From: Marivita sp.
GTDB lineage: Bacteria; Pseudomonadota; Alphaproteobacteria; Rhodobacterales; Rhodobacteraceae
Assembly (NCBI RefSeq): GCF_017643905.1
Contig: NZ_JAEPMO010000014.1
Location: 1-44,245 of the forward strand
Direction of reading: 5' to 3'
Length of the DNA stretch: 44,245 nucleotides
Shown here: one piece after another, positions 3,631 to 23,440 of the stretch
How positions within the stretch are numbered: position 1 is the first letter of the stretch
How the letters are laid out: the number at the start of each line of letters is the position of its first letter
Notes under the pieces: generated by a model
The model's database searches: none
What the model saw: only the letters and a program-made list of their open reading frames with translations
Told to the model about the DNA's origin: nothing
Position numbers and translations under genes: made by a program

Positions 3631-3889
3631 GCAACATACTGTTTCCACTTATTCTTTCAATTTCAATCCATTAGGCGACAAGCCTTTGTAAGCACAACGC
3701 TTTTCGTCGTTTTCTGTCGGATTTCAGCGCCTTCAGACAGCACACAATGTAGCCAAAACTGCGTTCACCGGTTGACCAGACGTTGACCGAAAGCATGATT
3801 GCACGGGGGAAGCATCGTCACGAAGGACGGAAAGCAGGCGTTTGCCGTGCGTTTCACGACTGATAAGTCTAAAATTAAGGCAGACTTTT

Positions 3890-5734: not shown

Positions 5735-6024
5735 TTCGATGCCCTCCCGCGCCGCAGGGTACGGCGCTGATCGTTTAGGTCAGAGCGGTACACGGTTATC
5801 ACGGCATCGCCGCGGAGGACGACCTTCATTCCGCTGAGCCGCTCGACATGCTGGATCCGCTTCTTTAAGCGGCTGATCTCCTGCGAGGCGTCCTCGCGGG
5901 TCATCATCCATTCTTCGGGGCCGACGGGGCTCGCGAGTTCCAGAACGAGATCAAGACCGGCATCGCACAAGCCGCGCTGGCGCAACCGCGCCTCGGCGTG
6001 TGGGGTGAGCGAGACGGCGGTCAT
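5731..6024 (-). CDS. DUF4258-like small protein
   Basis: A 97-residue protein. The N-terminal TPHAEARLRQRGL and C-terminal VVLRGDAVITVYRSD fit DUF4258, a RelE/BECR-fold-like family in which His/Arg of H-x3-R-x2-R-G and a final beta-strand are conserved. Many members sit next to an HTH gene and are suspected toxins. Here it is coupled by ATGA overlaps to the XRE gene upstream and to an unknown gene downstream. A middle helix with TREDASQEISRLKKRIQHVE may insert between the two motifs. The basic RRTLRRGRASK tail could bind nucleic acid. Toxin function is inference. Confidence 0.6.
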   Translation of the reverse strand: MTAVSLTPHAEARLRQRGLCDAGLDLVLELASPVGPEEWMMTREDASQEISRLKKRIQHVERLSGMKVVLRGDAVITVYRSDLNDQRRTLRRGRASK

Positions 6025-6977
6025 ATCTTGATCTCCGAAAATTTCGCTCGCCGCTCAGCCTTGCTCATTTCCTCTTTTTCGCGAACCTCGGGCGGGATCT
6101 TGTCGATCAGCCATGCGACCCGCTCAGGCGTCTTTTCAACGGCTTTCAGATCTTCCGGCATGTCGGCGATGCCAACGCGGACGTTCTTCATCGCGAACCC
6201 CGCCCAGTAGTCGCCGCCAGTGAGATCGGAGAGCCAGTTCTCGAAGACGGGCCATCTTGGCACACCGCCGCCATAGGGCAGTTCGATGTGTTCAGAGTCG
6301 ATTGCGGCGCGGTCTACCTTTTCCGCTAGTTCGGTCAGGAAACCAACGAACGGGTTTCCCTCGTTCGGGTCAAACGGATCGCAAACGAGACTGCCTTCCG
6401 CAGAAGCGAGAATCTCGTTGCCAAATATGTCTCGACTGGCCAGCGAGCGTTCCTCGTCTATGCATGCATTTTCAAAATCGCTACGTGCGTTATTGCCGTG
6501 TCTCAGATGTCCGGGCAGCTGGCTCATGGCCGTTTCAAAGGCTTCGCCAGCCGCAGCCAGCCGTTGCCGCCTTTCTGCAAGGCTCATCTCTGCAAGCAGA
6601 GTGAACATCCACGGCGCGGCTTCTACAAGATCGTGAAATTGGATTTCGTAATGGTGTAACACCCACCGGTAGTTCTGGCGCGCCGCATCCGGAAGCAGGA
6701 CCCTGATGGGCGTGTAGCCGCTCTTCTTCCAGTCTTCGTCGCTCACCTCGCTAGAAGGTTTGCCAAGCGCCTCGGATGTAACATCCAATGCCCTCGCGAG
6801 GCTTTCGACAGTATGCGCCCGCACGCGGTCCGGCGGGGTCTCGCCGGTTTCGATGCGCGCGATGGTCCGCTTGCTGACCCTAGAGCTATTGATCTGTTCA
6901 CACCGCTCCGCGAGGGCTTGCTGGGAGAGATTTCGCTCCTTACGCAGCTGCTTGAGGGTGTCTGGGTTTATGGACAT
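6021..6977 (-). CDS. XRE-family HTH regulator with long C-terminal domain
   Basis: The 318-residue product has a clear XRE/Cro HTH at residues 5-65: LKQLRKERNLSQQALAERCE, then VSKRTIARIETGETPP and LARALDVT. The remaining ~250 residues are an acidic, helical domain of unknown fold without obvious S24 peptidase residues, so this is not a LexA-type cleavable repressor. It leads a coupled operon with a DUF4258-like gene and an unknown gene. Four copies of a TATGTCATCA-like half-site lie 30-190 bp upstream, the nearest forming a palindrome, which suggests autoregulation. The ribosome site AGGAG lies 6 nt before ATG, inside a hairpin. It may act as the prophage repressor, or as the antitoxin-like member of its operon. 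Confidence 0.75.
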   Translation of the reverse strand: MSINPDTLKQLRKERNLSQQALAERCEQINSSRVSKRTIARIETGETPPDRVRAHTVESLARALDVTSEALGKPSSEVSDEDWKKSGYTPIRVLLPDAARQNYRWVLHHYEIQFHDLVEAAPWMFTLLAEMSLAERRQRLAAAGEAFETAMSQLPGHLRHGNNARSDFENACIDEERSLASRDIFGNEILASAEGSLVCDPFDPNEGNPFVGFLTELAEKVDRAAIDSEHIELPYGGGVPRWPVFENWLSDLTGGDYWAGFAMKNVRVGIADMPEDLKAVEKTPERVAWLIDKIPPEVREKEEMSKAERRAKFSEIKI

Positions 6978-7427: not shown

Positions 7428-7525
7428 TCCATTGCGGCCATGCGGTTGACAAAGGTCCGGTCTGGGCTAATCGCACACCACCCTCGCCAAACCAGTCATG
7501 CAACAGAACGGAATTCACCCGCCCG

Positions 7526-7554
7526 TTCAACCCCACCTTCCGCCTATTTTCCGC
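7526..7554 (+). repeat. 29-bp element, copy 1 (upstream of integrase)
   Basis: This block matches 10970-10998 at 25 of 29 positions, with a shared CCACCTTCCGCCT core and TTTCCGC end. Here it ends 74 nt before the integrase ATG; the other copy ends 64 nt before the first early gene. The similar distance to a start codon suggests a common promoter or operator element; the alternative is a duplicated recombination site flanking the int-WYL segment. Confidence 0.5.
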
Positions 7555-7628
7555 TCCCCGCCCCATGCTCTGACTTGATAGAGGCGCTGATCTACGCCTG
7601 TGTCAGACGAGAAAGGAGAGCAGAAGGG

Positions 7629-8888
7629 ATGGCAAACCGACTGAAACTGAACGAAAAAATCCTTCGCGATGCGGAGCCGCAAAAAGGCAACAGCTACCAG
7701 ATCTTCGACACGGAAATCCGTGGGCTGGCAGCAAAGGTACAACCCTCCGGCAACCGCGCCTTTACGCTGGACTACCGCTTCGCCGGACGGCAGCGCAGAC
7801 TGACGATCGGGCGTTGGCCGGAGTGGAGCGTGACGGCGGCGCGTGAGCGGGCACGCGAGCTGCGCCGCATGATCGATGAGGGCGAGGATCCACTGGCGGC
7901 CAAGGAGGAGCTGCGTGAAGCCCCACGCGTTACCGACATGATCGACCGCTACATCAGGGAACACCTGCCCAAGCTATCCCCGACCAACGCCGGCGATCAG
8001 ATTTCCATGCTGCGGAAAATGGTCGAACCCGCATGGGGGAACCGGCTGGTGACCGACATCACCAAATCCGATGTGGCCAAGTTTCTGGATTTCGTGGCCG
8101 AGGGCCGCCCGCGGCCCTGCAAGCAGAAGCCCAACAATCGGGCCCGGAAACTTCAGGGCCACAAGCCCACCCCGATCCGCGCGAACCGAATGGGGGAAGT
8201 GCTGCGCAAGATGTTCACCCTAGCCATGGAATGGGAATGGCGGTCTGACAATCCAGCGCAAGGGTTTCACCGGCGCATTGAACATGCCCGGGAGCGTTTC
8301 CTGTCGCCTGAGGAGCTGACCCGCCTTGCAGCGGTGCTCGACAAGGCTGAAGATCAGCGCGCCGCTTCGATCATCCGAATGTGCATGCTGACTGGCGCAC
8401 GCGTCGGAGAGGTCCGGCAGGCACGGTTCGAGCAGTTCAACCTCGACTACGCCATCTGGTCAAAGCCGGCATCAACAACGAAGCAGCGCAAGATCCACCG
8501 CGTCCCGATTTCGCAGGACGTGGTGGCGATTGTTCGGCAGCGCCACCTTGTCGTACCACGCGGCAACCCTTGGCTGTTCCCCGGTGACGCCGTGGGCAAG
8601 CCTGTCCGCGAAATCCGTCGTTTCTGGCTCATGGTTCAGCGAGAGGCCGACCTGCCCGACGTCCGCATCCATGACCTGCGTCACACGTTCGCCTCGTTGC
8701 TGGTCAGCGGCGGTGCGTCACTCGAGATCATCGGACGCCTGCTGGGCCACAGCCAGATGCAGACCACGCAGCGCTATGCCCACTTGATGGAGTCACCCCT
8801 GCGTGCAGGCGTGGACAGCGTGGCCAGCATCTTCCGGCCGCGGCCACAGCTAGTGCACGATGCCGATCAGGACCAGCGCTCAGCGTGA
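7629..8888 (+). CDS. int: Tyrosine-type site-specific integrase (P4-like)
   Basis: The 419-residue product catalyses integration and excision at the attachment site. The N-terminal ~90 residues form the DUF4102-like arm-binding domain (LAAKVQPSGNRAFTLDYR, LTIGRWPEWSVTAARERA), followed by a SAM-like core-binding domain (~100-210). The catalytic domain has Arg258 (TGARVGEV), Lys288 (TKQRKIHR), His348-x2-Arg351 (HDLRHTFAS), His374 (LLGHSQ) and nucleophile Tyr383 (TTQRYAHL); all are present, so it should be active. ATG at 7629 is chosen over longer in-frame starts because AAGGAG lies 10 nt before it and the protein then begins like its family. Integrases of this type commonly target tRNA genes, consistent with the tRNA-Met remnant at 3584. 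Confidence 0.93.
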   Translation: MANRLKLNEKILRDAEPQKGNSYQIFDTEIRGLAAKVQPSGNRAFTLDYRFAGRQRRLTIGRWPEWSVTAARERARELRRMIDEGEDPLAAKEELREAPRVTDMIDRYIREHLPKLSPTNAGDQISMLRKMVEPAWGNRLVTDITKSDVAKFLDFVAEGRPRPCKQKPNNRARKLQGHKPTPIRANRMGEVLRKMFTLAMEWEWRSDNPAQGFHRRIEHARERFLSPEELTRLAAVLDKAEDQRAASIIRMCMLTGARVGEVRQARFEQFNLDYAIWSKPASTTKQRKIHRVPISQDVVAIVRQRHLVVPRGNPWLFPGDAVGKPVREIRRFWLMVQREADLPDVRIHDLRHTFASLLVSGGASLEIIGRLLGHSQMQTTQRYAHLMESPLRAGVDSVASIFRPRPQLVHDADQDQRSA

Positions 8889-11574: not shown

Positions 11575-12002
11575 AGCGACGCGGCACACCCGAAGCAGAC
11601 CTGCAGCGCGCTGTCGTGACCGCGCTGCGCTTTGCCCTACCTAAGAGCGCCATCATCCATCACGGTGCAAATGAGGTGACCGAGGCCGGCCCGCGTGGAG
11701 CCAAGCGGCAGGCAATATTGGTTGGCATGGGCGTCCACCCCGGCTTTGCCGACCTGATCATTCTGTGTGACGGCAAAGTCCTTTTCCTCGAGCTGAAATC
11801 CCTCAAGGGCCGCCTCAGTCCAGCGCAAGAGGTGTTTCGTGATGCGGTGCTGTCCCAAGGCTTCGGCTGGGCGCTTGTGCGCTCGCTTGATGATGCGCTG
11901 GGCGCGCTGGCAGATCACGGGTTCACAACCCGTGTGGTCAACACTTCTATCTCGTCGACGTCAGAATTTGACGTCGGCAAGTCACGGAGGGGCGCGACAT
12001 GA
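11571..12002 (+). CDS. VRR-NUC domain nuclease
   Basis: A 143-residue stand-alone VRR-NUC protein, the nuclease fold shared with FAN1. The PD-(D/E)XK residues are visible: Asp61 (HPGFADLIIL), Glu74-x-Lys76 (FLELKSLKG) and Gln86 (LSPAQ). Phage members resolve branched DNA structures such as Holliday or flap junctions during replication and recombination. It lies in the early operon next to a replication-type HTH protein, which fits this role. It overlaps both neighbours by ATGA. Confidence 0.9.
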   Translation: MKRRGTPEADLQRAVVTALRFALPKSAIIHHGANEVTEAGPRGAKRQAILVGMGVHPGFADLIILCDGKVLFLELKSLKGRLSPAQEVFRDAVLSQGFGWALVRSLDDALGALADHGFTTRVVNTSISSTSEFDVGKSRRGAT

Positions 12003-13009
12003 GCCATGCCGCAACCAACTGGGCTATCCAACAGCGCGGTCTGAAACCCACGACCAAGATCGTGCTTTGGCATCTATGTGATCGTTTCAATCCGGATTTC
12101 GGCTGTTTTCCCTCCCAGGAGCAGCTTGCTCATGATTGCGAAATCAGCCGATCGACGCTGAACGAGCATCTGACCTTGCTTGAGACGGCTGGCCTGATCC
12201 GTCGCGTGCAACGCCTCAATCCCGGCAACAAACGGCAGATGCCGACCCGCTACATCTTGGCCTTCGAGCCGGGCTTTACCCAAGATAAGCCAGCTCCGTG
12301 TCCGGAAACCGGACATGGTGGTGACGTGCAGAACGATCTGCCGTTCGCGCCCCCGGAAATCGCTGCCGAAATCGGCGCATCTCCTATGGATAACTTGACC
12401 CCGTGTCCGAAATCCGGACGCGGAGCCGTGTCCGATTTTGACCCCGACCCGTGTCCGGAAAAAGCCCCGAGCCGTGTCCGAAATCCGGACAGTAACCTTG
12501 TAAGAGAACCAGTAAGTAAACCAGTAAAGGAGGAGGAGGGCGCGCAAGCGCGTGACGGCCTCGGCGAGGAGTTTTTCGGATCGTTGCTTGCGGCACTGGG
12601 GTTCGACCCTGACGGCCCCCTGCCCGGCTGGTGGCAGGGCTGGCCACCCCGTGAGCATGTTCGGAGATGGCAAACGGACCTCGGGTTGAGTGAGGCCGAC
12701 ATCCTCGAGGTGGCAGGGGCGTCGCGGCAGGAACACCCCGAACCTCCCGACGGCCCTAAGGCGTTGGACCGTGTCATGCAGCGCGCCGCCCAGCGCCAGG
12801 TGGATGATGCGTCGCGAAAACGGCGCAGGCCAAAGGCGGCCTCTGCGCAGAAAACCCGCCCAATTACAGACCTGCCGGTCTTCTATGCCGAGATGGTCAA
12901 CTCTGATCGCTACCTTCCCGTGAGCGCGATCTCGAACTCTATGCGCGACGTGATGCTTGCCCGTGGCCTCGTGACGGCCGAGCGCCTCCGTGAACGGGGC
13001 ATCAGATGA
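11999..13009 (+). CDS. HTH replication-type protein with internal iterons
   Basis: The 336-residue product carries an HTH_36-type winged helix at about 10-90 (KPTTKIVLWHLCDRFNPDFG, FPSQEQLAHDCEISRSTLNE, LETAGLIRRV). A low-complexity linker follows at 97-180, where repeated PCPETGHG / PCPKSGRG / PCPEKAPSR peptides are the translation of DNA iterons. The C-terminal domain (about 185-336) resembles the DnaA/DnaC-loader-recruiting region of phage primosomal proteins. Its position matches lambda O: early operon, ATGA-coupled, origin-like repeats within the gene. The initiator role is inferred from these features; I see no helicase or primase motif in it. Confidence 0.75.
   Translation: MSHAATNWAIQQRGLKPTTKIVLWHLCDRFNPDFGCFPSQEQLAHDCEISRSTLNEHLTLLETAGLIRRVQRLNPGNKRQMPTRYILAFEPGFTQDKPAPCPETGHGGDVQNDLPFAPPEIAAEIGASPMDNLTPCPKSGRGAVSDFDPDPCPEKAPSRVRNPDSNLVREPVSKPVKEEEGAQARDGLGEEFFGSLLAALGFDPDGPLPGWWQGWPPREHVRRWQTDLGLSEADILEVAGASRQEHPEPPDGPKALDRVMQRAAQRQVDDASRKRRRPKAASAQKTRPITDLPVFYAEMVNSDRYLPVSAISNSMRDVMLARGLVTAERLRERGIR
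12296..12490 (+). repeat. Iteron-like repeats, candidate prophage replication origin
   Basis: CCGTGTCCG starts at 12296, 12401, 12426, 12449 and 12472. Three copies extend to a near-palindromic 19-mer (12296-12314, 12401-12419, 12472-12490), the first containing a perfect GTCCGG-AAA-CCGGAC. The last four are spaced 23-25 bp apart, about two helical turns. A more AT-rich stretch (12491-12530, AGTAAGTAAACCAGTAAAGG) follows, as in origins with a melting element. They lie within the gene for the probable initiator, as in lambda O. Confidence 0.65.
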
Positions 13010-13692
13010 AACACGATCGCAGTTTGCATTCACGCGCTGGGCGGGTCGGGCCAAGCCGCCCGAAGCGGTCCATGTCGGTTCAGCAGGCACTAGAATGGGC
13101 ATTCCGGGTAGAGCATGCCCAGCTTGAGTTGCCAGAGCCACCCGATCCCGAGCGCGAGCAAGGGTTTGGCTTTGGCCTCGAATACGTACTGCTGCAGCGC
13201 GCCATCCTCGGCTGCAAGGTTGATGGCGGCCAGTACAAGATTGGCAGCTACGTCCATGAGGACGCCGAGGTCATTGCAGCCACTGTCGCAGGCATGCCCG
13301 ACCACCTCGGCGGGAAGCGCATGGCTATCCGCGTGGCAGAGCTCGCTCGCGCTGGGCTGACGCCAGACTGGATGCCGGGGGCCGTGCCGCGCTGCGTGCC
13401 CGTGGACATAAAACGAAACCGACATGGTGATCGCGCAGTCAGCACCGTCGTTGGAACTGAGCGCGTTCTGGTGAAAGGAAAATGGCGTAGCGTCGAGGTT
13501 CGAGCATGTCCCGTGATGTTCAGACCGGATGCCAGCCAGATTGAAGCTGCTCGGCGCGCCTATCAGGTTTGGTGCGAAGCGCTGGGCTGGATTAGAGACG
13601 GCCTAACGGCAAGCAGGCTCCTGCGAGACGTCGAGCTCACGGCGACACAGCCGAAAACGCAGCCTTGGTTAACACCGCAAACGCGAAGATAG
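13006..13692 (+). CDS. Hypothetical early/late-switch phage protein
   Basis: A 228-residue protein with a basic N-terminus (MKHDRSLHSRAGRVGPSRPK), a helix SVQQALEWAFRVEHAQLE, and a C-terminal segment (QIEAARRAYQVWCEALGWIR) that could be an HTH. The family is not recognised. Its position as last gene of the early operon is where lambdoid phages carry antiterminators or late regulators, but this is only positional. It is ATGA-coupled to the iteron gene. Confidence 0.65.
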   Translation: MKHDRSLHSRAGRVGPSRPKRSMSVQQALEWAFRVEHAQLELPEPPDPEREQGFGFGLEYVLLQRAILGCKVDGGQYKIGSYVHEDAEVIAATVAGMPDHLGGKRMAIRVAELARAGLTPDWMPGAVPRCVPVDIKRNRHGDRAVSTVVGTERVLVKGKWRSVEVRACPVMFRPDASQIEAARRAYQVWCEALGWIRDGLTASRLLRDVELTATQPKTQPWLTPQTRR

Positions 13693-13741
13693 ATTCACGC
13701 TTCGGTGCCCTGGAAGTCGGGCAAACTTGATCGCATCCCAC

Positions 13742-13770
13742 TTGATTGCAATGCAATCACAGCTTACTTT
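13742..13770 (+). promoter_or_regulatory. Promoter with embedded 17-bp palindrome for the six-gene operon
   Basis: TTGATT (13742-13747), a 17-nt spacer and TACTTT (13765-13770) form a sigma70-type promoter 24 nt upstream of the antitoxin ATG. The palindrome TGATTGCAATGCAATCA (13743-13759, perfect 7+7 arms) covers the -35 and most of the spacer, the classic arrangement of toxin-antitoxin autoregulation. No other promoter-like site is obvious before 21752, so all six genes may depend on it. Confidence 0.6.
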
Positions 13771-13793
13771 GAGCAAGCAGCAGGGAGGAGACC

Positions 13794-14036
13794 ATGGCAA
13801 GCATCACGATTCGTAGCCTTGATGACGAAGTAAAGCGCCGCTTGCGCGTTCGCGCGGCCGAGCATGGTCGGTCGATGGAGGAAGAGGCCCGCGAAATTCT
13901 GCGTCAGGTTGTCGGGCAAGCAAAACCCGCTCACGATCTTGCCGCGGCCATCCGTGCACGGGTCGCGCCTCTGGGTGGCGTTGATCTCGACCTTCCGCAG
14001 CGTGAAGCCATGCGTGAACCGCCCGCGTTTGACTAG
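13794..14036 (+). CDS. FitA/VapB-type ribbon-helix-helix antitoxin
   Basis: An 80-residue protein. Residues 1-40 (MASITIRSLDDEVKRRLRVR, HGRSMEEEAREILRQ) are the RHH/Arc-like domain of the FitA family; the rest is the toxin-binding tail. A GGAGGAG ribosome site lies 3 nt before ATG. It is expected to neutralise the PIN toxin encoded 9 nt downstream and to bind the palindrome in its own promoter. It is the first gene of a six-gene coupled operon that continues into the methyltransferase. Confidence 0.9.
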   Translation: MASITIRSLDDEVKRRLRVRAAEHGRSMEEEAREILRQVVGQAKPAHDLAAAIRARVAPLGGVDLDLPQREAMREPPAFD

Positions 14037-14045
14037 GCCTGACGC

Positions 14046-14468
14046 ATGATCATCCTCGACACGAATGTCATCTCGGAGCTGTTGCGTCCGGCCCCGGAGC
14101 CAATGGTCGAACACTGGCTGTCCGCTCAGGACGGGCTCAAGGTCTACTTGACCTCGATATCTGAGGCAGAACTGCGCTACGGCCTCGCGATCATGGGGAG
14201 CGGCAAGCGCCGCGCCGCGCTGGTTGAAGCTGTGGACCGCATCCTGCGCGAGGACCTGGCCGGGCGCATTCTGCCCTTCGACAGCAACGCCGCGCAGTCC
14301 TTCGCCACCATAGCAGCCGCACGTCGCGCCGCCGGGCGACCGATTGCCCAAGCCGATTGCCAGATTGCATCCATTGCCCACGCTTGCGGCGCCACGGTCG
14401 CCACGCGCAATACGCCTGACTTCGAGGGTTGCGAGATCGACCTGATCAACCCCTGGACAGCCGCATGA
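14046..14468 (+). CDS. FitB/VapC-type PIN-domain toxin
   Basis: A 140-residue PIN-domain ribonuclease with the four acidic residues in place: Asp5 (ILDTNVIS), Glu42 (SEAELRYG), Asp104 (AQADCQIA) and Asp125 (NTPDFEG). VapC-type enzymes cleave tRNA or rRNA and are held inactive by the partner antitoxin. Its stop codon overlaps the start of the methyltransferase (ATGA, 14465-14468). That is unusual for a toxin-antitoxin pair and links it to the downstream system by translational coupling. Confidence 0.92.
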   Translation: MIILDTNVISELLRPAPEPMVEHWLSAQDGLKVYLTSISEAELRYGLAIMGSGKRRAALVEAVDRILREDLAGRILPFDSNAAQSFATIAAARRAAGRPIAQADCQIASIAHACGATVATRNTPDFEGCEIDLINPWTAA

Positions 14469-17197
14469 ACGCCGTTGAAATCGAACAAGCCGTTTCCGAA
14501 CTCGCCGAGCAGCCTTTTGACGCGGCCGAGTTCCCCTATGCCTTCCTCATGGCCTTCGGAAACAAGGACACGACGATCAAGCGCCTGCGTACCGGCGCGT
14601 CGAACAAATCCGACCTCGGCGGCGTCCTGCAGACCAACAACATCCACCTTGCGACCTGCGCCCCGGGCGACATAGCGGCGACCCTGACCGCCCTGCGCGA
14701 CAGCCCTGCCACCACCCGCGCAAAGGCGAAGTTCATCCTCGCCACCGATGGCATCGACCTCGAGGCCGAGGATATCACCACAGGCGAAACCATCGCCTGC
14801 CGCTACACCGATTTCCCCGACCATTTCGGCTTCTTCCTGCCGCTCGCCGGCATCTCCACTGTCAAGCAGATCCGCGAAAGCGCCTTCGACATCCGCGCGA
14901 CCAGCCGTCTCAACAGGCTCTATGTCGAACTGATCAAGGACAACCCCGACTGGGGAGTGGCCTCCAAACGCCACGACATGAACCATTTCATGGCGCGGCT
15001 GATCTTCTGCTTCTTCGCCGAAGACACCGACATCTTTGTCAGCGACAACCTGTTCACCGCCACCATCGACCAGATGGCCAACCGCGACGGGTCCAACACA
15101 CATCAGGTCATCGGCGAGATTTTCCGTGCGATGAACACGCCCATCGCCAAGCGCGCCGAGGCCAGGCTGCCCCGTTGGGCCGATGCCTTTCCTTACGTGA
15201 ACGGCGGGCTGTTCTCGGGCAGTACCGATGTGCCGCGCTTTTCCAAGATCGCGCAGCGCTATCTCTCCCATATCGGCAGCCTCGATTGGACGCAGATCAA
15301 CCCCGACATCTTCGGGTCCATGATCCAGGCCGTCGCGGATGAGGAGGAACGCTCGGTCCTCGGCATGCACTACACCTCGGTGCCGAACATCCTGAAGGTG
15401 TTGAACCCGCTCTTTCTCGATGACCTGCGCGCCGAACTGGAGGCGGCGGGCGACAACGCGCGCAAGCTGGCCAATCTGCGGGCACGCATGGCCAAGATCC
15501 GCGTCTTTGATCCCGCCTGCGGGTCGGGCAACTTCCTTGTCATCGCCTACAAGGAAATGCGCAGCATCGAGTATGAGATCAACAAGCGGCGGGGCGAGCC
15601 GCAGCGGCGCACCGACATTCCCCTGACCAACTATCGCGGGATCGAACTGCGGGATTTCTCGGCCGAGATCGCGCGGCTGGCGCTGATCATCGCGGAATAC
15701 CAATGCGACGTGACCTATCGCGGCCAGAAAGAGGCGCTGGCCGAATTCCTGCCGCTGGACGCGCAGAACTGGATCACCTGCGGCAACGCCCTGCGGCTGG
15801 ACTGGCTGTCGGTCTGCCCGCCCACGGGGACGGGGGTGAAGTTCCAGGCCGACGACCTGTTCATGCCGCCGCTGGATCAGGCGCAGATCGATTTCGCGAA
15901 CGAGGGGGGCGAGACCTATATTTGCGGGAACCCGCCTTACGTAGGCGACAAATATCAGAGCTTGGAGCACAAGAGCGACCTAGCCAATCTGGCAGTTGGC
16001 ATGAAGAATGCAAAAGCTGTCGACTATGTCGTTGGCTGGATTTGGAAAGCATCAGAATACATCAAACACGTAGATGGTTTATTTGCATTTGTGACTACAA
16101 ATTCCATATGTCAGGGGGTGCAAGTCCCCATAATTTGGCCTCCAGTTTTCAAAAATGGTCAAGAAATTTTCTTTGCACATCGGAGCTTCTACTGGTCGAA
16201 CAACGCCAGCAACAATGCCAATGTGATTTGTGTAATTGTTGGAGTTGCGCCAAAGGGAAATGCGAATTCTCCCAAGAAAATCTATGATGATTGCCATCAA
16301 ACTGTCGCAGAGAACATAAACGCCTATCTCGTTGATGGGCCGAGTGTTATTGTGCAGAAGCACGCCGAACCTGTTAATGGTCTTCCAGAGATGGTTGCAG
16401 GTAATATTCCCCGTGACCTCGGGAATTTCATGTTGGATCCAGAAGCCAAGATTCAACTTTTGAGCGAATATCAAGAGGCCCAGCCGCTAATAAGAAAGAT
16501 ACAAGGCTCCAAGGAATTTATTAATGGAATCGAGCGTTACTGCTTATGGATTGGTGACGATCAGGTGCCTCTAGCACAATCAATACCACCTATCCTAGAG
16601 AGGCTTGATCGGGTTAAAGAATATAGGCGAACAGGGAGTGAGCGCGGAAAGCTCGGTTATGCTACGCCGCATCGTTTTGAGCGGCGGATTTTGGGAAAGA
16701 CTTCAACTATTATCGTCCCAAGAGTGTCGTCAGAACGCCGCGAGTATCTTCCTGCGGGCCTTCTAGAGCCTGACATTATTATTTCGGATGCGGCGCAGGC
16801 TGTCTATGACGCTCCCTTGTATGTGTTCGCTGTTCTACAGACAAGATTGCACACAGCATGGGTCAAGTTGACAGCTGGCCGAATGAAGTCTGACTTCCGG
16901 TATTCGTCTGGGGTTTGTTACAATGCCTTCCCGGTCCCGAAACTGACCGAAAAGAACCGCGCCGATCTGACGGCGGCGGCAGAAGGCATCCTTCTGGCCC
17001 GCGAGGCGCATTTCCCCGCCACTATCGCCGACCTCTACGACCCCGAAAAAATGCCCGCCAACCTGCGCGCTGCGCATGACCACAACGACGAGGTGCTGGA
17101 ACGCATCTACATCGGCCGCCGCTTCCGCAACGACACCGAACGGCTGGAAAAACTGTTCGAGATGTACACGAAGATGACGACAAAGGTAAGCGCATGA
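14465..17197 (+). CDS. MmeI-like adenine-specific DNA methyltransferase
   Basis: The 910-residue product has an N-terminal MmeI_N-like domain (about 1-130), a helical spacer (about 140-320), and an N6-adenine methyltransferase core with motif I FDPACGSGNFLV (348-359) and motif IV NPPY (489-492). The target-recognition domain spans about 495-820, followed by a C-terminal helical cap. I do not see the D-x(n)-E-x-K endonuclease motif that MmeI-type IIG enzymes carry N-terminally, so it probably only methylates, with cleavage supplied by downstream proteins. The ATG at 14465 is set by the 4-nt overlap with the toxin gene and matches the family N-terminus. DNA encoding the target-recognition part is visibly AT-rich compared with both ends, suggesting domain replacement. 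The nuclease gene starts within its stop. Confidence 0.88.
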   Translation: MNAVEIEQAVSELAEQPFDAAEFPYAFLMAFGNKDTTIKRLRTGASNKSDLGGVLQTNNIHLATCAPGDIAATLTALRDSPATTRAKAKFILATDGIDLEAEDITTGETIACRYTDFPDHFGFFLPLAGISTVKQIRESAFDIRATSRLNRLYVELIKDNPDWGVASKRHDMNHFMARLIFCFFAEDTDIFVSDNLFTATIDQMANRDGSNTHQVIGEIFRAMNTPIAKRAEARLPRWADAFPYVNGGLFSGSTDVPRFSKIAQRYLSHIGSLDWTQINPDIFGSMIQAVADEEERSVLGMHYTSVPNILKVLNPLFLDDLRAELEAAGDNARKLANLRARMAKIRVFDPACGSGNFLVIAYKEMRSIEYEINKRRGEPQRRTDIPLTNYRGIELRDFSAEIARLALIIAEYQCDVTYRGQKEALAEFLPLDAQNWITCGNALRLDWLSVCPPTGTGVKFQADDLFMPPLDQAQIDFANEGGETYICGNPPYVGDKYQSLEHKSDLANLAVGMKNAKAVDYVVGWIWKASEYIKHVDGLFAFVTTNSICQGVQVPIIWPPVFKNGQEIFFAHRSFYWSNNASNNANVICVIVGVAPKGNANSPKKIYDDCHQTVAENINAYLVDGPSVIVQKHAEPVNGLPEMVAGNIPRDLGNFMLDPEAKIQLLSEYQEAQPLIRKIQGSKEFINGIERYCLWIGDDQVPLAQSIPPILERLDRVKEYRRTGSERGKLGYATPHRFERRILGKTSTIIVPRVSSERREYLPAGLLEPDIIISDAAQAVYDAPLYVFAVLQTRLHTAWVKLTAGRMKSDFRYSSGVCYNAFPVPKLTEKNRADLTAAAEGILLAREAHFPATIADLYDPEKMPANLRAAHDHNDEVLERIYIGRRFRNDTERLEKLFEMYTKMTTKVSA

Positions 17198-18519
17198 ATA
17201 AGAATGCAGACCCTAACAACGCCACGCCGGGTGACTTCGAAGCCTTGTTCGTGAACAACCGTGAGCTTGATCGAATTTCAGCTTACCTTAACCGCTTCAA
17301 TCCAATTCGCGTTATGCGCATGCAATCCATGGAGATACGGCATTCTGCGATACTTGCATGGTTGCTAGACCCAACTGAAAACCATGGTTTCGATGACGAA
17401 TTCCTACGCGCATTTCTGGCGCAAGCACTTGTTGGATCAAAGAACGCAAAATTATCGGCATTAGACGTCTCTCAAGCAGATCTGCGAGATGCCGAAATTC
17501 AGCGCGAAAAGCGCGACATGGATATTTTTGTTATTTCGCCCTCGCAAGGCTGGGCGTTCGTTATCGAGAATAAGTTTCATAGCAAGCAGAGCGACGGACA
17601 GCTTTCCAAATATCTTGAGCGCGCGAAAAAAGATGCAATGGATGCTGGTAAGGCTTTCACCCACCAAGGTATTTTTCTCACACTGCACGATGAAGCGCCT
17701 AACGACGATGCAGCGGATCAGTATGTTGCTCTGAAATATTCAGAGATATGCGAAATCCTTTCTTCAGTTATGACGGCACGTGAAGGCAGGATGGGCGGCG
17801 AGGTTCGGCAGTTCCTCGAACACTATTTGGATGTTATAAGAGAGGCTACTGATATGAGTGACGATCAGAAGGTCATGGCCAACATCGCGCGACAGCTCTA
17901 CCGAACACACAAAAAGGCCCTCGATTTCATCATGGAGCACGGCGTTTCAACGGAATTCATGGTCGCTGCAGAGATCGTATTTGGAGAAAACCTGGAATAC
18001 GGTGATAAGCTACCTGTTCACGGTTTAGACGCTAGCGTCATGTATCATTCACAAAACCAACGTATATTCAGCTTCCTGCCCACAACCTGGTTGGATGCAT
18101 TGGGTGATGAAACAAGTAAGCCGTGGATAGGCTGCGAAAATTGGTGGGCCGGCTTTCCAGTCATATGCTGGCTACAGTTGAACACTAAACCTGATGGCGT
18201 GCAGGGCGGCCTTTTTCTCTATGCCGAAGTTGGACCTCTTGCCGACGCGGAGGCCCGAACCGACCTAATCGAAAGCATAAAGCATTGTGCACAAGGCAGA
18301 ACCAAGGATCGCATCAAGTTTCGCGCTGATGCCACCAAGCCGGGTGCGAAATATTCGAAGTTTTTCAATCGCAACAACACCACGATAGAGGACATCAGCG
18401 ACGCAGAGGCTATCGCAAAGGGGATGAAAAAACTGATCAAGGAATTTAACCCTGTCTTTGATAATGTCGCGAACAGCCTAAAAGAATATTCGAGTCGTAG
18501 GGGCGATCAAGATGGCTGA
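17194..18519 (+). CDS. PD-(D/E)XK (PDDEXK_4-type) nuclease
   Basis: The 441-residue product has an N-terminal EIRHSAILAWLLDPTENHG motif (about 47-65) typical of PDDEXK_4 proteins, followed by the nuclease core: Asp110 (KRDMDIFV), Glu125-x-Lys127 (VIENKFHS) and Gln136 (GQLSKYL). The rest is a long C-terminal domain of unknown fold, probably for specificity or partner binding. Catalytic residues are complete. It starts in the methyltransferase stop codon (ATGA) and overlaps the helicase gene by 8 nt. The gene is AT-richer than its neighbours. In this context it is the likely cleavage subunit of a restriction-like complex; that role is inferred. Confidence 0.82.
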   Translation: MNKNADPNNATPGDFEALFVNNRELDRISAYLNRFNPIRVMRMQSMEIRHSAILAWLLDPTENHGFDDEFLRAFLAQALVGSKNAKLSALDVSQADLRDAEIQREKRDMDIFVISPSQGWAFVIENKFHSKQSDGQLSKYLERAKKDAMDAGKAFTHQGIFLTLHDEAPNDDAADQYVALKYSEICEILSSVMTAREGRMGGEVRQFLEHYLDVIREATDMSDDQKVMANIARQLYRTHKKALDFIMEHGVSTEFMVAAEIVFGENLEYGDKLPVHGLDASVMYHSQNQRIFSFLPTTWLDALGDETSKPWIGCENWWAGFPVICWLQLNTKPDGVQGGLFLYAEVGPLADAEARTDLIESIKHCAQGRTKDRIKFRADATKPGAKYSKFFNRNNTTIEDISDAEAIAKGMKKLIKEFNPVFDNVANSLKEYSSRRGDQDG

Positions 18520-20566
18520 CACGTCTAGCGTACCTTCCGTCTCCGTCAAATACGCCGCCAATGGCAGCTCGACCAAGTCGAACGAGTTGGGCATGCGGGC
18601 GATGCAGGAACGCGCCTATGAGAAGCGCGGCGAGCAATACCTGCTGATCAAGTCGCCCCCCGCTTCGGGCAAATCCCGGGCGCTCATGTTCATCGCGCTC
18701 GACAAGCTGCATAATCAGGGCCTGCGTCAGGCCATAGTCGTAGTACCGGAAAAGTCCATCGGGTCCAGCTTCAACGACGAGCCGTTGAGCAAGTACGGCT
18801 TCTGGACCGACTGGACCGTCCAGCCGCAATGGAACCTGTGCAATGCCCCCGGCGGAGATGACGGCAAGGTCGGAGCCGTCGGCAAGTTCCTGGCCAGCGG
18901 CGACAAGGTGCTAGTCTGCACCCATGCCACTTTCCGCTTCGCCGTGGACAAGTTCGGGATCGAGGCTTTTGACGATCGCCTGATCGCCGTGGACGAATTC
19001 CACCACGTCTCGGCCAACCCGGACAATAAGCTGGGCACGCACCTGGGCGCACTGGTCGCGCGCGACAAGGTGCATCTGGTCGCCATGACCGGATCGTATT
19101 TCCGCGGAGATGCCGAGGCCGTTCTGTCGCCCGAGGACGAGGCGCGGTTCGATACAGTGACCTACACCTATTACGAGCAGCTGAACGGCTACAAATACCT
19201 TAAGTCGCTCGACATCGGGTATTTCTTTTATTCCGGGTCCTATGCGGACGACATCCTCAAGGTGCTGGACCCAGCCGAGAAGACGATCCTGCACATCCCT
19301 AACGTGAACTCACGCGAGAGCACGAAGGACAAGCATCGCGAGGTCGAGCACATCATCGACGCTCTGGGTGACTGGCAGGGCACCGACCCCGCCACCGGGT
19401 TTCAACTGGTCAAGACGCCTGAGGGGCGTGTGCTGCGCATCGCCGATCTGGTGGATGATGAACCGGCCAAGCGGGACAAGGTCTCCGCTGCGCTGAAGGA
19501 CCCCGCGCAGAAGAACAACCGCGACCATGTCGACATCATCATCGCCCTGGGGATGGCGAAGGAAGGGTTCGACTGGATCTGGTGCGAACACGCCCTGACG
19601 GTCGGCTATCGCGCCAGCCTGACCGAGATCGTCCAGATCATCGGCCGCGCCACCCGCGATGCCGAGGGCAAGACGCGCGCGCGCTTCACCAACCTGATCG
19701 CGGAGCCCGACGCCGCGGCCGAGGCCGTGACCGAGGCGGTCAACGACACGCTGAAAGCGATCGCCGCGAGCCTGCTGATGGAGCAGGTTCTTGCCCCACG
19801 TTTCAACTTCACGCCCAAGACCGTGAAAAGTGGCCCTGTCGAAGGGTTCGATTACGGCGAGGGCGGCTATGATCCGAACAAGGAGAACGTCGGCTTCAAC
19901 GAGGCCAGCGGGCAGTTCCAGATCGAGATCAAGGGCCTGGTAGAGCCCAAGAGCAAGGAAGCCAAGCGCATCTGCCAGGAAGACCTCAACGAGGTGATCA
20001 CCGCTTTCGTTCAGGACAAGACCACGATCGAGCGGGGCCTCTTCGATGAGGAACTGGTACCCGAGGAACTGACGCAGGTTCGCATGGGCAAGATCGTCGG
20101 AGCAAAGTTCCCGGAGCTGGATGCCGAGGATCAGGAAGCCGTGCGGCAGCATGCGGTGGCCGCGCTCAACCTGACCCAGAAGGCGAAGGAGATCGCTCTG
20201 TCGAGCAGCGATGACATACAGACCACGGGAAACACAGCCTTGATCGACGGGGTGCGCAAATTCGCAATGGACGTGCGTGAACTCGACATTGACTTGATCG
20301 ACCGGATCAACCCCTTCGGCGAAGCCTACTCGATCCTGGCAAAGACGATGAGCGAGGAGAGCCTTCGGCAGGTACAGGCCGTGATCTCGGCGAAAAAGGT
20401 GCAACTGTCCTCGGACGAGGCGCGTGATCTGGCGAAGCGCGCTGTCAAGTTCAAGCAGGAGCGGGGCCGATTGCCTTCCATCACATCGCTTGATCCGTGG
20501 GAGAAGAAAATGGCCGAAGGTGTGGCCTATCTCGCGCGCATGAAGCAGGAGGCTGCCAATGGCTAA
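18512..20566 (+). CDS. SF2 (DEAD/DEAH-type) helicase
   Basis: The 684-residue product has Walker A SPPASGKS (48-55), a DEFH box in LIAVDEFHHVS (161-164), motif III TGS (193-195) and motif VI QIIGRATRD (375-383). These motifs form both RecA-like lobes of an SF2 helicase or translocase. About 280 C-terminal residues follow, mostly helical and acidic. Such helicases provide ATP-driven DNA translocation in type I/III restriction and related defence systems. It overlaps the nuclease by 8 nt and the GIY-YIG gene by 8 nt. It carries no nuclease domain itself, so it is expected to work with the PD-(D/E)XK and/or GIY-YIG products. Confidence 0.88.
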   Translation: MADTSSVPSVSVKYAANGSSTKSNELGMRAMQERAYEKRGEQYLLIKSPPASGKSRALMFIALDKLHNQGLRQAIVVVPEKSIGSSFNDEPLSKYGFWTDWTVQPQWNLCNAPGGDDGKVGAVGKFLASGDKVLVCTHATFRFAVDKFGIEAFDDRLIAVDEFHHVSANPDNKLGTHLGALVARDKVHLVAMTGSYFRGDAEAVLSPEDEARFDTVTYTYYEQLNGYKYLKSLDIGYFFYSGSYADDILKVLDPAEKTILHIPNVNSRESTKDKHREVEHIIDALGDWQGTDPATGFQLVKTPEGRVLRIADLVDDEPAKRDKVSAALKDPAQKNNRDHVDIIIALGMAKEGFDWIWCEHALTVGYRASLTEIVQIIGRATRDAEGKTRARFTNLIAEPDAAAEAVTEAVNDTLKAIAASLLMEQVLAPRFNFTPKTVKSGPVEGFDYGEGGYDPNKENVGFNEASGQFQIEIKGLVEPKSKEAKRICQEDLNEVITAFVQDKTTIERGLFDEELVPEELTQVRMGKIVGAKFPELDAEDQEAVRQHAVAALNLTQKAKEIALSSSDDIQTTGNTALIDGVRKFAMDVRELDIDLIDRINPFGEAYSILAKTMSEESLRQVQAVISAKKVQLSSDEARDLAKRAVKFKQERGRLPSITSLDPWEKKMAEGVAYLARMKQEAANG

Positions 20567-21752
20567 GGGTTTCACTGATGAGGACGACGCTCTTCTCGCT
20601 GAGCTTGGCGTCGAGGTCGAGGTCAAGAAGCAGCTCAGCCGCACACCACGCGAAGAGCGCATCATCGCAGGCTTTGAGGAAATTTTGCGATTTGCAGAGG
20701 AGCATGGTCGGCCTCCCCAGCACGGGGAGGATCGTGATATCTTTGAACGCCTCTACGCCGTGCGTCTTGATCGGATACGCGAATTGCAGGAGTGCCGCGA
20801 CCTCCTTGCACCACTGGACGAGCAAGGTCTCCTTGCAAAAACCTCTGCGCCCTTAGCGGGGGACGCCGATGATCTAGATGACGACGCACTCCTCGCTGAA
20901 CTGGGCGTAGAAGTTGCCACGTCACCACTCACAGAGTTGAAGCATGTCCGGTCGACAGCTGAGAAAAAGGCCGCCGATGAAGTGGCGAACCGAGAGAAAT
21001 GCGAGGATTTCGCGACGTTCAAGCCCTTGTTCGAGCAGGTCCAGAAAGAGATGGATAGCGGCTTGCGCGAGACCCGACCGTTCGAGATGAAGGCCGAGAT
21101 CGAAAAAGGACGCTTCTTCATCGTCAGTGGACAGAAAGCTTATGTCGCGGCCAAGGGCGAAACAATCACCAATGAACAAGGCCGCACGGATGCACGTCTG
21201 AGGGTCATTTTCGACAACGGCACGGAAAGCAACATGCTGATGCGCTCGCTTCAGCGCGCTTTGAACAAGGACGACGCCGGACGCCGGATCACAGACCCAT
21301 CAGCAGGGCCGCTCTTTTCGGATCAGACAATCGACGGAGACGAGGCAAGCGGGACGATTTATGTGCTGCGCAGCAAATCCGATCATCCACTTGTCGCCGA
21401 GAACCGCGACCTCGTACACAAGATCGGCGTCACAAATATGAGTGTTGAAAAGCGGATCGCTGGCGCCCAGCTACAGCCAACGTTTCTCATGGCGAATGTA
21501 GAGGTGGTGGCAACCTATGAGCTCTACAATATCAACAGGACAAAGCTGGAGAATTTGATCCATCGGATTTTCGAGCCCGCGCGCCTCGAGATCGAGATCA
21601 TGGATCGTTTTGGGAGACCTGTTCTGCCGCGCGAATGGTTTCTTGTTCCACTCTTCGCGGTCAACGAGGCCGTCGAAAAGATAAAGGAAGGGTCTATCGC
21701 GAACTACCTGTACGATCCGAGGCAGGCAAAGCTGGTCAAGCGCGCGGTATGA
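20559..21752 (+). CDS. GIY-YIG (T5orf172-type) nuclease with duplicated N-terminal motif
   Basis: The 397-residue product has a C-terminal GIY-YIG domain of the T5orf172 type: GTIYVL (265-270), HKIGVT (287-292), Arg299 and catalytic-type Glu331 (TKLENLIH). The N-terminal region carries two copies of DDALLAELGVEV (9-20 and 108-119), possibly docking motifs. ATG at 20559 has AGGAGG 6 nt upstream and lies inside the helicase stop. It is the last gene of the operon. It could be a second nuclease, a nicking partner or a regulator of cleavage. No terminator follows directly. Confidence 0.82.
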   Translation: MAKGFTDEDDALLAELGVEVEVKKQLSRTPREERIIAGFEEILRFAEEHGRPPQHGEDRDIFERLYAVRLDRIRELQECRDLLAPLDEQGLLAKTSAPLAGDADDLDDDALLAELGVEVATSPLTELKHVRSTAEKKAADEVANREKCEDFATFKPLFEQVQKEMDSGLRETRPFEMKAEIEKGRFFIVSGQKAYVAAKGETITNEQGRTDARLRVIFDNGTESNMLMRSLQRALNKDDAGRRITDPSAGPLFSDQTIDGDEASGTIYVLRSKSDHPLVAENRDLVHKIGVTNMSVEKRIAGAQLQPTFLMANVEVVATYELYNINRTKLENLIHRIFEPARLEIEIMDRFGRPVLPREWFLVPLFAVNEAVEKIKEGSIANYLYDPRQAKLVKRAV

Positions 21753-21837
21753 CCCCCTCCCATGGTTCCTCCCTGGCCCTTTGCGTATACGGGGGGGCGC
21801 AGCGCGCAAGTTTTCTAGCGTCTGGCCTTTTCACCGG

Positions 21838-21990
21838 GGAATCCACCGGGAAGCCAGTACTTTCGTGACGCGCAAAAACCTGACTCATTATCAAAGGGTT
21901 ACGCATCCCAGAGCCCTTTCAGGTGGATTCCACTGAGGAATCCAAGGAAGCCACCTTTCGTGGAATCCACCCGTCCCTTTAGGAAGCCAT
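21838..21990. repeat. Composite GGAATCCA / GGAAGCC repeats and dyads
   Basis: In this non-coding gap GGAATCCA occurs at 21838, 21937 and 21962, each followed by GGAAGCC (21850, 21946, 21982). An inverted copy TGGATTCC at 21924 makes a palindrome with the second one (arms 21924-21931 and 21937-21944). GTGGATTCCAC (21923-21933) and GTGGAATCCAC (21960-21970) are also mutual inverted repeats. Position between the cargo operon and the packaging genes makes it a candidate cos/pac, regulatory or recombination region. The rest of 21753-22177 shows no gene. Confidence 0.55.
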
Positions 21991-22058
21991 TGATTCAAAA
22001 CAGAAAACGGATTGACATTTCTAGCCCCCTTGACCTATCAAGGAAACATCGAAGATTT

Positions 22059-22095
22059 GCGCCCGGAGGAGACCCTCGCGGGCGCTTTTGTTTTT
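22059..22095 (+). terminator. Intrinsic terminator
   Basis: GCGCCCG and CGGGCGC form a 7-bp stem around a 13-nt loop, followed by TTTTGTTTTT. It ends 82 nt before the ParB-methyltransferase ATG. It probably ends the upstream six-gene transcript, or a short RNA starting in the repeat region, and insulates the next operon. Confidence 0.8.
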
Positions 22096-22177
22096 CTGAC
22101 ATCGTGACTGCCGACGCGCCCGTGACCTCGGGGTTGGCTTCGGCATGCTTCGCCCCTGCCTGTGAGCTTTCCTTCCA

Positions 22178-23440
22178 ATGGATCTTGTCTTTGCGCCGCG
22201 CCAGATTGAGCTCTGGCCGATCGAGAAGCTGCGCCCCTATGCCAAGAACGCGAAGATCCATGGCGAGGCACAGGTTGCGAAGATCGCGGCCAGCATGGCG
22301 AAGTTCGGCTGGACTGTTCCTTGCCTGGTGGCCGACGACGGCGAGTTGATTGCTGGCCATGGGCGTGTGCTGGCCGCAGGGGCACTGGGCCTGACCGAAG
22401 CCCCTGTCATCCGGCTTGGCCATCTCGATGAAGCGGAACGGCGCGCTTATCGCATCGCCGATAACAAGCTGACCGAGCTTGGCGAATGGGACGAGGCGAT
22501 GCTGCGCGACGAGATCGCAGGGCTCTTGGCGGAAGACTTCGACCTCGATCTACTGGGCTTTTCGGATGAGGACCTGGATGCGCTTCTACAGGATCCAGAG
22601 ACGATGGGCGAAGACGGGGCTGTCGAAGGCGAGGATGACATCCCAGAGCCGCCGGTTAACCCGGTGTCGGTGGCGGGCGACCTTTGGCAGCTTGGATCGC
22701 ATCGGCTGATCTGTGGTGACAGCACCAGCGCCGATGTTGTTGGGCGCCTTCTCGGGAGCGTAAAGCCGCTGCTGATGGTGACTGACCCGCCCTATGGCGT
22801 GGAATACGATCCGTCCTGGCGCAACCAGGCGGGTGCCGCGAAGACGAAGCGCACCGGCAAGGTGATGAATGACGACCGCGCTGACTGGCGCGAGGCCTGG
22901 TCGCTCTTCCCGGGCGATGTCGCCTACATCTGGCACGGCGCGCTGCATGCGGCCACGGTTGCGGACAGCCTGATCGCCGCGGGCTTCGCCATCCGCTCCC
23001 AGATCATCTGGGCCAAGGATCGGCTGGTGCTCAGCCGCGGCGACTATCACTGGCAGCATGAGCCCTGCTGGTATGCGGTGCGCGCCAAGGGCAAAGGCCA
23101 CTGGGCGGGCGATCGGAAACAGACCACGCTCTGGCAGATTGCCAACAAGGATCAGGATGCAGCCACGGTTCATGGGACGCAGAAGCCGGTGGAATGCATG
23201 CGCCGCCCAATCTTGAACAACTCAAGCCCGGGCCAAGCGGTCTATGAGCCCTTCATGGGTTCTGGCACCACGCTGATCGCGGCCGAGACGACTGGGCGCC
23301 TCTGTTACGGGGTGGAGCTGAACCCGGTTTACGTTGATGTGGCCATCGAGCGCTGGCAGGCCTTCACCGGCGAAGAGGCCGTCTTGCTGGACAGCGGCGA
23401 GACCTTTGCAGCGCTCAAGTCGCAGCGGTTGGCCGCGTGA
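22178..23440 (+). CDS. ParB-N/DNA methyltransferase fusion (orphan phage MTase)
   Basis: The 420-residue product has a ParB/Srx-like domain at about 10-100 (LRPYAKNAKIHGEAQVAKIA, DGELIAGHGRVLAA), an acidic linker, then an N6A/N4C methyltransferase with motif IV DPPYG (203-207), HGTQKPVE (332-339) and motif I FMGSGTT (359-365). The order IV before I marks the beta class. Phages use such orphan enzymes to protect or mark their DNA; the ParB domain may help DNA binding. No cognate nuclease is adjacent. It is cotranscribed with the small membrane protein after it. Confidence 0.92.
   Translation: MDLVFAPRQIELWPIEKLRPYAKNAKIHGEAQVAKIAASMAKFGWTVPCLVADDGELIAGHGRVLAAGALGLTEAPVIRLGHLDEAERRAYRIADNKLTELGEWDEAMLRDEIAGLLAEDFDLDLLGFSDEDLDALLQDPETMGEDGAVEGEDDIPEPPVNPVSVAGDLWQLGSHRLICGDSTSADVVGRLLGSVKPLLMVTDPPYGVEYDPSWRNQAGAAKTKRTGKVMNDDRADWREAWSLFPGDVAYIWHGALHAATVADSLIAAGFAIRSQIIWAKDRLVLSRGDYHWQHEPCWYAVRAKGKGHWAGDRKQTTLWQIANKDQDAATVHGTQKPVECMRRPILNNSSPGQAVYEPFMGSGTTLIAAETTGRLCYGVELNPVYVDVAIERWQAFTGEEAVLLDSGETFAALKSQRLAA

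Follow-up and report, generated by a model that had tools for sequence, protein, structure and literature searches.

A probably modular restriction-modification-like operon of the DnmA-YeeB-YeeC kind with a toxin-antitoxin head, carried by a Marivita prophage

Introduction

Do six adjoining genes that look like one operon also form one system? The question is raised by a 44,245-nt stretch of Marivita sp. DNA (contig NZ_JAEPMO010000014.1), which was analyzed at its full length and is called the window below. It carries, in one direction, genes for a ribbon-helix-helix (RHH) antitoxin, a PIN toxin, an MmeI-like methyltransferase (MT), a PD-(D/E)XK nuclease, a superfamily 2 (SF2) helicase (HEL) and a GIY-YIG nuclease (GIY). 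An earlier note made from the sequence alone had taken these genes for an unrecognised six-gene defence system. The three genes MT, HEL and GIY, however, match the published DnmA-YeeB-YeeC cluster, and this core is thus already known. The locus is not a new six-gene system; what is new is a version of DnmA-YeeB-YeeC with a toxin-antitoxin (TA) head in a modular, fast-recombining operon. As read from the sequences, the core is conserved and is combined with two slots, one for a regulator or TA pair that overlaps the start of MT, and a hypervariable one between MT and HEL. In the window these slots hold a predicted FitAB-type RHH-PIN pair and a predicted PDDEXK_4 nuclease.

Results

A conserved core of MT, HEL and GIY

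The layout described in the earlier note was borne out by open reading frames (ORFs) and Pfam: six genes on one strand, with a 9-nt gap between the RHH and PIN genes and overlaps of 4, 4, 8 and 8 nt at the later four joints (Table 1). All six reading frames are complete, the active-site residues of MT, HEL, GIY and the PDDEXK_4 nuclease are retained, and the GC content of the operon is 56.8% compared with 62.0% for the remaining window. MT carries five MmeI domains in Pfam, the methyltransferase domain being the strongest, and its top PADLOC match is REase_MTase_IIG (9.4e-287). For HEL, Pfam returned DEAD (3.2e-5, under the cut-off) and ResIII (1.2e-4, right at the cut-off), and residues G53-K54-S55, D161-E162-F163-H164, R379 and R382 are invariant in a 14-row alignment. 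Residues Y268, K288, G290, R299, E331 and H335 of GIY are kept in at least 90% of 149 homologues, and D110, E125-N126-K127 and Q132 of the PDDEXK_4 nuclease are invariant among 8 aligned sequences. The NCBIfam VapC models match the PIN gene below their cut-offs. The PADLOC candidate PDC-S26 was recovered as a profile match of a single protein (E=2.2e-71). The name 'pseudomurein-binding repeat' given to HEL homologues was set aside; in the window it corresponds to a short C-terminal repeat match only (PF09373).

MT has no restriction endonuclease (REase) motif, and HEL and then the T5orf172 nuclease follow downstream on the same strand. The likeness to DnmA-YeeB-YeeC is one of gene order and domains as the available part of PMC9973331 describes them. 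The phmmer alignment of MT to the MmeI structure 5hr4 begins only at residue 87, and a D-x7-25-[DE]xK pattern, present in 17 of 123 N-termini of the family, is neither found in the window protein nor a conserved column. MT has no ExK motif, and restriction would need to come from other genes. The earlier idea of a split restriction-modification (R-M)-like set thus stands as far as a methyltransferase without recognisable nuclease motif and one TA-type promoter-like element are concerned, but not for the six genes as one system. On a Ligilactobacillus plasmid, a helicase at approximately 46% identity is likewise followed by a GIY-YIG gene.

Genome samples of the class, the order and the phylum, which overlap in part, contained homologues of HEL (E<=1e-60) in 17 of 385, 45 of 390 and 15 of 299 genomes, respectively. 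The species collection gave at least 558 confirmed stretches, plasmids gave 264 records (E<=1e-5), and 2 phage records held fragments only. Viral, plasmid and genome loci, the last taken from the best 80 of the at least 558 confirmed stretches, were pooled with the window to 167 loci, 158 of them non-redundant at 99% helicase-gene nucleotide identity; similarity of the helicase was the basis of selection, and the sample is biased towards alphaproteobacteria. A full MT is present in 131 of the 158 and a readable MT end upstream of HEL in 148, while in the 10 loci without an MT end the helicase lies near a contig end. A GIY-YIG homologue of more than 340 aa without a stop was found in 149 of the 158 loci.

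A front slot for antitoxin-type regulators

The position ahead of MT was studied in the 127 loci in which MT is complete and preceded by 700 nt or more of sequence, counting ORFs that end between -150 and +40 nt from the MT start and naming them by Pfam on representatives, not on every locus. An RHH-PIN pair stands directly ahead of MT in 9 of the 127, with a 4-nt overlap of PIN stop and MT start in 8 and the two genes abutting in L059. The other genes at this position encode HigA-like XRE proteins (11 loci), solo RHH_9 proteins (7), HTH_17 proteins (4) and a further XRE type (3), and single loci have a Fic gene (L030), a resolvase gene (L107) or a gene for a WYL protein (L221). No ORF of at least 50 aa ends here in 26 loci; the ORFs of the remaining loci were not identified, and some are surely spurious. 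L054 (3940-4726) has an XRE gene and a PIN-like fragment ahead of MT, possibly a decayed RHH-PIN head.

The HigA-like proteins end at the MT start as solo genes (L045, L053, L060, L061, L065, L069, L075, L173, L176, L197 and L202), and their loci share variants of one upstream element, TGTCGATTATCACTATA, which reads TGATAATCGCCGATTATCA in L202 (by eye). From their sequence context, these solo proteins look like control proteins. A HigB toxin ahead of them was considered and rejected, as no common ORF of at least 55 aa was seen by eye near the HigA-like start in the 11 loci. L075 has no such ORF at all, and Pfam on two of the ORFs returned no match in L045 and a WGR domain, not HigB, in L053. 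Going by these front-slot counts, a sizeable share of the operons starts with an antitoxin-type regulator, in most cases with no recognised toxin beside it.

The earlier note had itself named absence of the TA pair from most homologous loci as the finding that would speak against its proposal, and the RHH-PIN pair is absent from 118 of the 127 (among them L054 with its PIN-like fragment). A PDDEXK_4 match of more than 1 kb occurs in 8 loci, 7 of which have readable upstream DNA, and among these 7 only the window combines it with RHH-PIN.

A shared promoter-like layout

The single promoter with a TA-type palindrome that the earlier note had placed ahead of the operon is present as a promoter-like element, in which the palindrome reads TGATTGCA-A-TGCAATCA. 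Of the 9 non-redundant RHH-PIN loci, 8 show by eye, 5' of the RHH gene, a layout that begins with TTGATYGCA and has a -10-like hexamer 17 nt further along; L081 is the only one without it, and the DNA surrounding it differs among the 8. The exact palindrome is shared by the window and L059 only. At the same position, L183, L027, L032 and L033 have a shorter inverted repeat, and L003 and L051 have no inverted repeat of at least 6 bp.

A hypervariable middle slot

The distance from MT stop to HEL start is less than 200 nt in 62 of the 148 loci, which we call empty, and larger in 86; in 57 loci the first middle gene overlaps the MT stop by 4 nt. The middle genes, many of them unrelated to one another, were grouped by single-linkage phmmer clustering, by which families may merge or split, and were named from Pfam and PADLOC on representatives. 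The most recurrent family is a 137-aa protein (16 loci) with conserved D46...Q61-x-K63, by eye a PD-(D/E)XK-like pattern. It is followed by AlbA/HATPase (9 loci), RhuM (8), a 260-aa family (8), a mixed cluster with one weak T5orf172 match (7), a cluster weakly similar to Type IV REase, ZacB and PbeA (7), 277-aa and 290-aa families (6 each), BrnT (6), DUF1016/YhcG (4) and CcdAB (2). One representative each of the 290-, 277-, 260- and 137-residue families had no Pfam or PADLOC match at E<=0.01. PDDEXK_4 was found in 6 loci by clustering, the 8 matches given above being those of tblastn. Genes seen in one locus each are AbiEii with DUF6088, PIN, GmrSD-like, CoiA-like, and DUF4258 with a weakly MqsA-like gene.

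Remnants of the 5' end of HEL were found within 4 of 84 scanned middle slots (L032, L027, L033 and L178); the one in L178 is 28 nt long only and is accompanied by a remnant of the MT end. L211 and L212, with more than 4 kb between MT and HEL, belong to the 148 loci and are outside both the tree described below and these 84 slots. Such remnants are as expected of stacked insertions and would be footprints of cassette insertion. In L032 the remnant lies at about 8198-8314, between stacked middle genes.

Exchange of parts between related operons

The helicase tree comprised 123 rows (quick LG+G4, SH-aLRT only, with long-branch warnings); L028, L220, L223 and L225 were left out because their extrapolated helicase start hit a stop. 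On this tree the RHH-PIN pair requires at least 4 changes, gain and loss not being separable, against a shuffled mean of 8.8, and none of 200 shuffles was as low; accordingly, the pair is also retained within clades. The middle family requires at least 61 changes (shuffled mean 73.0; 0 of 200 as low), or at least 50 if occupied loci only are considered (mean 55.9; 1 of 200 as low).

Exchange was further examined in 76 pairs of loci whose helicases share 90% identity or more; the pairs are not independent of each other. The target recognition domain (TRD) of MT is less than 70% identical in 71 of these pairs. The middle state differs in 54, of which 7 share one of two or more families; among the 22 with equal state, both slots are empty in 17. 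The upstream class is equal in 55 of the 76. At the level of DNA, homology between the window and L183 covers 13784-15939, 16926-17198 and 18530-21691, leaving as gaps the TRD region and the middle gene, and the breakpoints are sharp and near gene or domain borders. Homology with L188 and L195 starts at the MT start (14466 and 14462), omits the TRD and continues in a second block that runs through PDDEXK_4. Judged by these breakpoints, the window operon looks like a mosaic in which an RHH-PIN lineage has been joined with a PDDEXK_4 lineage.

The RHH-PIN pair in other settings

Homologues of the PIN protein (E<=1e-15) were found in 12 of 244 genomes of the order. Seven are at least 55% identical, and 4 of these precede a DnmA-type MT. 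In L242 (621-6146; PIN 74%), the pair lies approximately 60 nt ahead of MmeI/Eco57I-type methyltransferase genes and a ResIII helicase gene; in L243 it adjoins convergent DUF1156 and DUF499/HEPN genes, and in L244 it stands alone in the prophage interval described below. For the 5 homologues below 52%, no match to the window MT was found in the stretches read. A related pair in Jannaschia has an IS110 transposase behind it, and for more distant relatives carried by Rhizobium plasmids the annotation, taken by itself, is VapC with plasmid stabilization protein.

On a Marinibacterium plasmid (L239, 8749-14887), a PIN gene 93% identical lies 351 nt ahead of HsdR-HsdM-like genes of a type I R-M system, without overlap. 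The Pseudosulfitobacter TT37-68 plasmid (L238, 8749-15388) keeps RHH-PIN-MT-HEPN-ATPase, with the HEPN protein in the middle slot; its helicase match is cut to residues 4-123 and a second fragment of residues 1-38, and no GIY-YIG match was found in the stretch read. About 30 sister records of L238 look alike among the matches listed.

A prophage interval rich in R-M genes

The operon sits inside a prophage, a setting absent from the earlier note, between two phage genes here called PA and PB (Table 1). Among the best 80 of 90 viral loci with a PA homologue, PB lies downstream of PA within the fetched DNA in 57. In 59 loci (these 57 with L003 and L051), the PA-PB distance ranges from 410 nt to 9.9 kb, with 410-533 nt in 6. 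Clusters of interval cargo, named from one representative apiece, include type I R-M genes (REase in 13 loci, MTase in 12, specificity in 11) and type III R-M genes (MTase in 6, weakly REase-like in 4). Across the interval in the window (13693-22177), L250-L329, L003, L051 and L244, the content is type I or III R-M genes, the operon, a lone RHH-PIN pair or next to nothing.

In L003 and L051, an RHH-PIN-MT-x-HEL-GIY operon occupies the same interval. As their helicases fall outside the clade of the window, the sequences suggest that the operon arrived there more than once. Of 13 operon-free relatives that were compared, 11 show phage homology resuming right by the GIY stop (21752), at positions 21750-21754 of the window; in L312 it starts at 21762, and L265 has no match. 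On the left flank (13601-13800) no match at E<=1e-4 was found in the operon-free relatives compared. The genome from which the window comes has another, partial PA homologue (70%; G000:C98:18333-18701), which suggests that it carries a second prophage related to this one. PHROGs also identifies an HNH/homing-endonuclease-like gene at 3842-4894, to the left of the repressor gene.

Table 1. Features of the operon and of the surrounding prophage (window coordinates)
Feature	Position	Strand	Basis or remark
Promoter-like element TTGATT-17 nt-TACTTT	13742-13770	+	sequence
Palindromic operator candidate TGATTGCAATGCAATCA, within spacer of promoter-like element	13743-13759		sequence
RHH gene, FitA-like ribbon-helix-helix antitoxin/autoregulator (predicted)	13794-14036	+	PF22513 (FitA-like_RHH) E=1.3e-20
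PIN gene, PIN-domain toxin (FitB/VapC/StbC family; predicted)	14046-14468	+	PF01850 E=5.1e-13
MT, MmeI-like DNA methyltransferase without REase motif (DnmA type)	14465-17197	+	PF20473 E=2.7e-112
TRD of MT, residues 621-827	16325-16945	+	often swapped
PD-(D/E)XK gene, PDDEXK_4 nuclease, exchangeable middle slot	17194-18519	+	PF14281 E=1.4e-26
HEL, SF2 helicase, YeeB-like	18512-20566	+	weak DEAD/ResIII/Helicase_C matches
GIY, T5orf172/GIY-YIG nuclease, YeeC-like	20559-21752	+	MUG113 1.1e-15, T5orf172 6e-12 (PF13455, PF10544)
Prophage holding the operon	6021-43754	.	PHROGs; ends not determined
Prophage repressor	6021-6977		PHROGs
Prophage integrase	7440-8888		PHROGs
Prophage replication gene	11999-13009		PHROGs
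PA, left neighbour, phage protein, replication-side, left edge of cargo interval	13006-13692	+	phrog_9306
PB, right neighbour, phage ParB-like/N6_N4 methyltransferase, right edge of cargo interval	22178-23440	+	phrog_498 E=1.2e-152
Terminase	26802		PHROGs
Portal	29057		PHROGs
Capsid	32497		PHROGs
Tape measure	37213		PHROGs
Tail fibre	41208		PHROGs

Discussion

Our results suggest that the locus is probably a modular R-M-like operon of the DnmA-YeeB-YeeC kind, carried as prophage cargo, autoregulated and perhaps addictive through its TA head. In this operon the RHH antitoxin, with PIN as co-repressor, would bind the palindrome in the promoter and set the expression of all six genes. MT would mark its own non-palindromic site, the HEL translocase and the GIY nuclease would act on unmarked DNA, and the PDDEXK_4 protein would, as an accessory nuclease, broaden this attack or serve as its back-up. 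Through the PIN toxin, loss of the operon or the prophage would come at a cost, and the lysogen would benefit from protection against other phages. The roles of RHH in setting core expression and of the middle gene as a second-line effector are inferred from position, and the PIN toxin may equally serve element stability.

Several points weigh against this interpretation. On the helicase tree, HigA-like genes change 10 times (against a mean of 10.7 after shuffling, with 57 of 200 shuffles as low) and PDDEXK_4 changes 6 times (mean 6.9; 21 of 200), close to random labels, so there is little or no inheritance of either with the core. In B. subtilis, deletion of dnmA, yeeB or yeeC left the sensitivity to three phages unaltered, and according to the available part of PMC9973331 the authors regard that locus as a non-functional relic; protection in Vibrio crassostreae, which the same paper cites, is the sole support for defence. 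Since no R-M operon follows some relatives of the RHH-PIN pair (L244, L241), its coupling to such operons may be opportunistic.

This last point leads to the possible, if on balance unlikely, explanation that RHH-PIN is a generic plasmid and phage addiction cassette which lands ahead of restriction operons or other cargo, the overlap with MT being a by-product and the toxin having no restriction role. It would account for the lone pair of L244, the pair before a transposase in Jannaschia, the Rhizobium plasmid listings and the RHH-PIN-MT unit that outlives a fragmented helicase and a lost GIY in Pseudosulfitobacter TT37-68. However, all plasmid pairs with a PIN at least 79% identical that were read in context lie ahead of R-M genes (L027, L238, L239, L240), and the 4-nt overlap and the promoter layout are preserved in separate clades. 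We consider it improbable that the core is a decaying relic in which MT lives on as an orphan regulator with no restriction activity left: the B. subtilis precedent (PMC9973331), the broken helicase of L238 and the MT frames that stop early in 4 of the 127 loci (L065, L067, L178 and L208) point in this direction, but in the window all frames are complete and the catalytic residues are kept. The dedicated six-gene abortive-infection system of the earlier note, with toxin release on promoter shutdown, is very improbable. The gene overlaps do suggest a single transcription unit, and PrrC, a toxin held in check by an R-M complex (PMC3506569, available in part), is a precedent; the combination, however, occurs in the window only among 127 loci with readable upstream DNA.

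A more specific arrangement can be tentatively put forward, which we hold to be rather doubtful. DnmA-YeeB-YeeC operons might be a two-port platform, with a front port for exchangeable autoregulators (single antitoxins or entire TA pairs) and a middle port for equally exchangeable second-line effectors, kept in check by an MT-HEL complex and set free once a phage blocks restriction. If this were true, the rapid swapping of middle genes and TRDs would be an arms race over which effector backs which specificity.

The front slot suggests that restriction-like operons have taken antitoxins into service as control proteins, whether or not the toxins came along, and in the middle slot second-line effectors may be naturally enriched. 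That prophages have defence hotspots is already known (PMC9122126, available in part); the PA-PB interval adds an R-M-rich cargo site of a temperate phage family.

Comparison with known systems

The closest known relative is the DnmA-YeeB-YeeC cluster of Bacillus subtilis and its relatives, which has an REase-less MmeI-like methyltransferase, an SF2 helicase and a T5orf172 nuclease in the same order (PMC9973331). The RHH-PIN head and the PDDEXK_4 gene between MT and HEL are extra in the window, and that account, in the part available, mentions neither of the exchangeable slots; our literature search, of partial coverage, found no recognised account of interchangeable slots in such operons.

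With the type IIL enzyme MmeI (PDB 5hr4), MT shares alignable methyltransferase, spacer, TRD and C-terminal domains; unlike MmeI, it aligns nothing before residue 87, and nuclease and methyltransferase active sites were not found together in its one chain. A type I R-M system was rejected, as no specificity or restriction profile is among the matches listed for the window genes (8 of the 33 PADLOC matches of MT lie outside those listed); MT has a weak N6_Mtase match (2.8e-5). BREX and DISARM were rejected as well: the PglX and DrmMI matches of MT are secondary (best 3.1e-24 vs 9.4e-287 for type IIG), the NCBIfam BREX models stay far under their cut-offs, and none of the other five genes matches a profile named PglX/BrxX or Drm.

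The head of the operon resembles the type II TA systems FitAB, VapBC and StbBC in its RHH antitoxin gene followed by a PIN toxin gene and in a candidate operator palindrome within a promoter-like element. It differs in the overlap of its toxin gene with the MT start and in its promoter, which would also serve a restriction-like operon. Similar mixtures are known from R-M loci with embedded toxins (PrrC, RhuM, HEPN, Fic/Doc), where toxin-like accessory genes are exchangeable within the operon and RhuM is found as it is here; there the core is HsdMSR, whereas here it is of DnmA type with accessory genes between MT and HEL. In the parts of these papers available to us, immunity genes are proposed to be coupled with suicide genes, toxins being displaced repeatedly in R-M loci (PMC3506569), RhuM and HEPN genes in R-M operons are described (PMC3710099), and the regulation of R-M by control (C) proteins is compared with that of TA systems by antitoxins (PMC3874152). 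Like a C protein, the RHH protein would be a DNA-binding autoregulator within an R-M operon, with the difference that it is an antitoxin with its own PIN toxin. As far as these accounts go, the window fits the picture they draw, on a different core.

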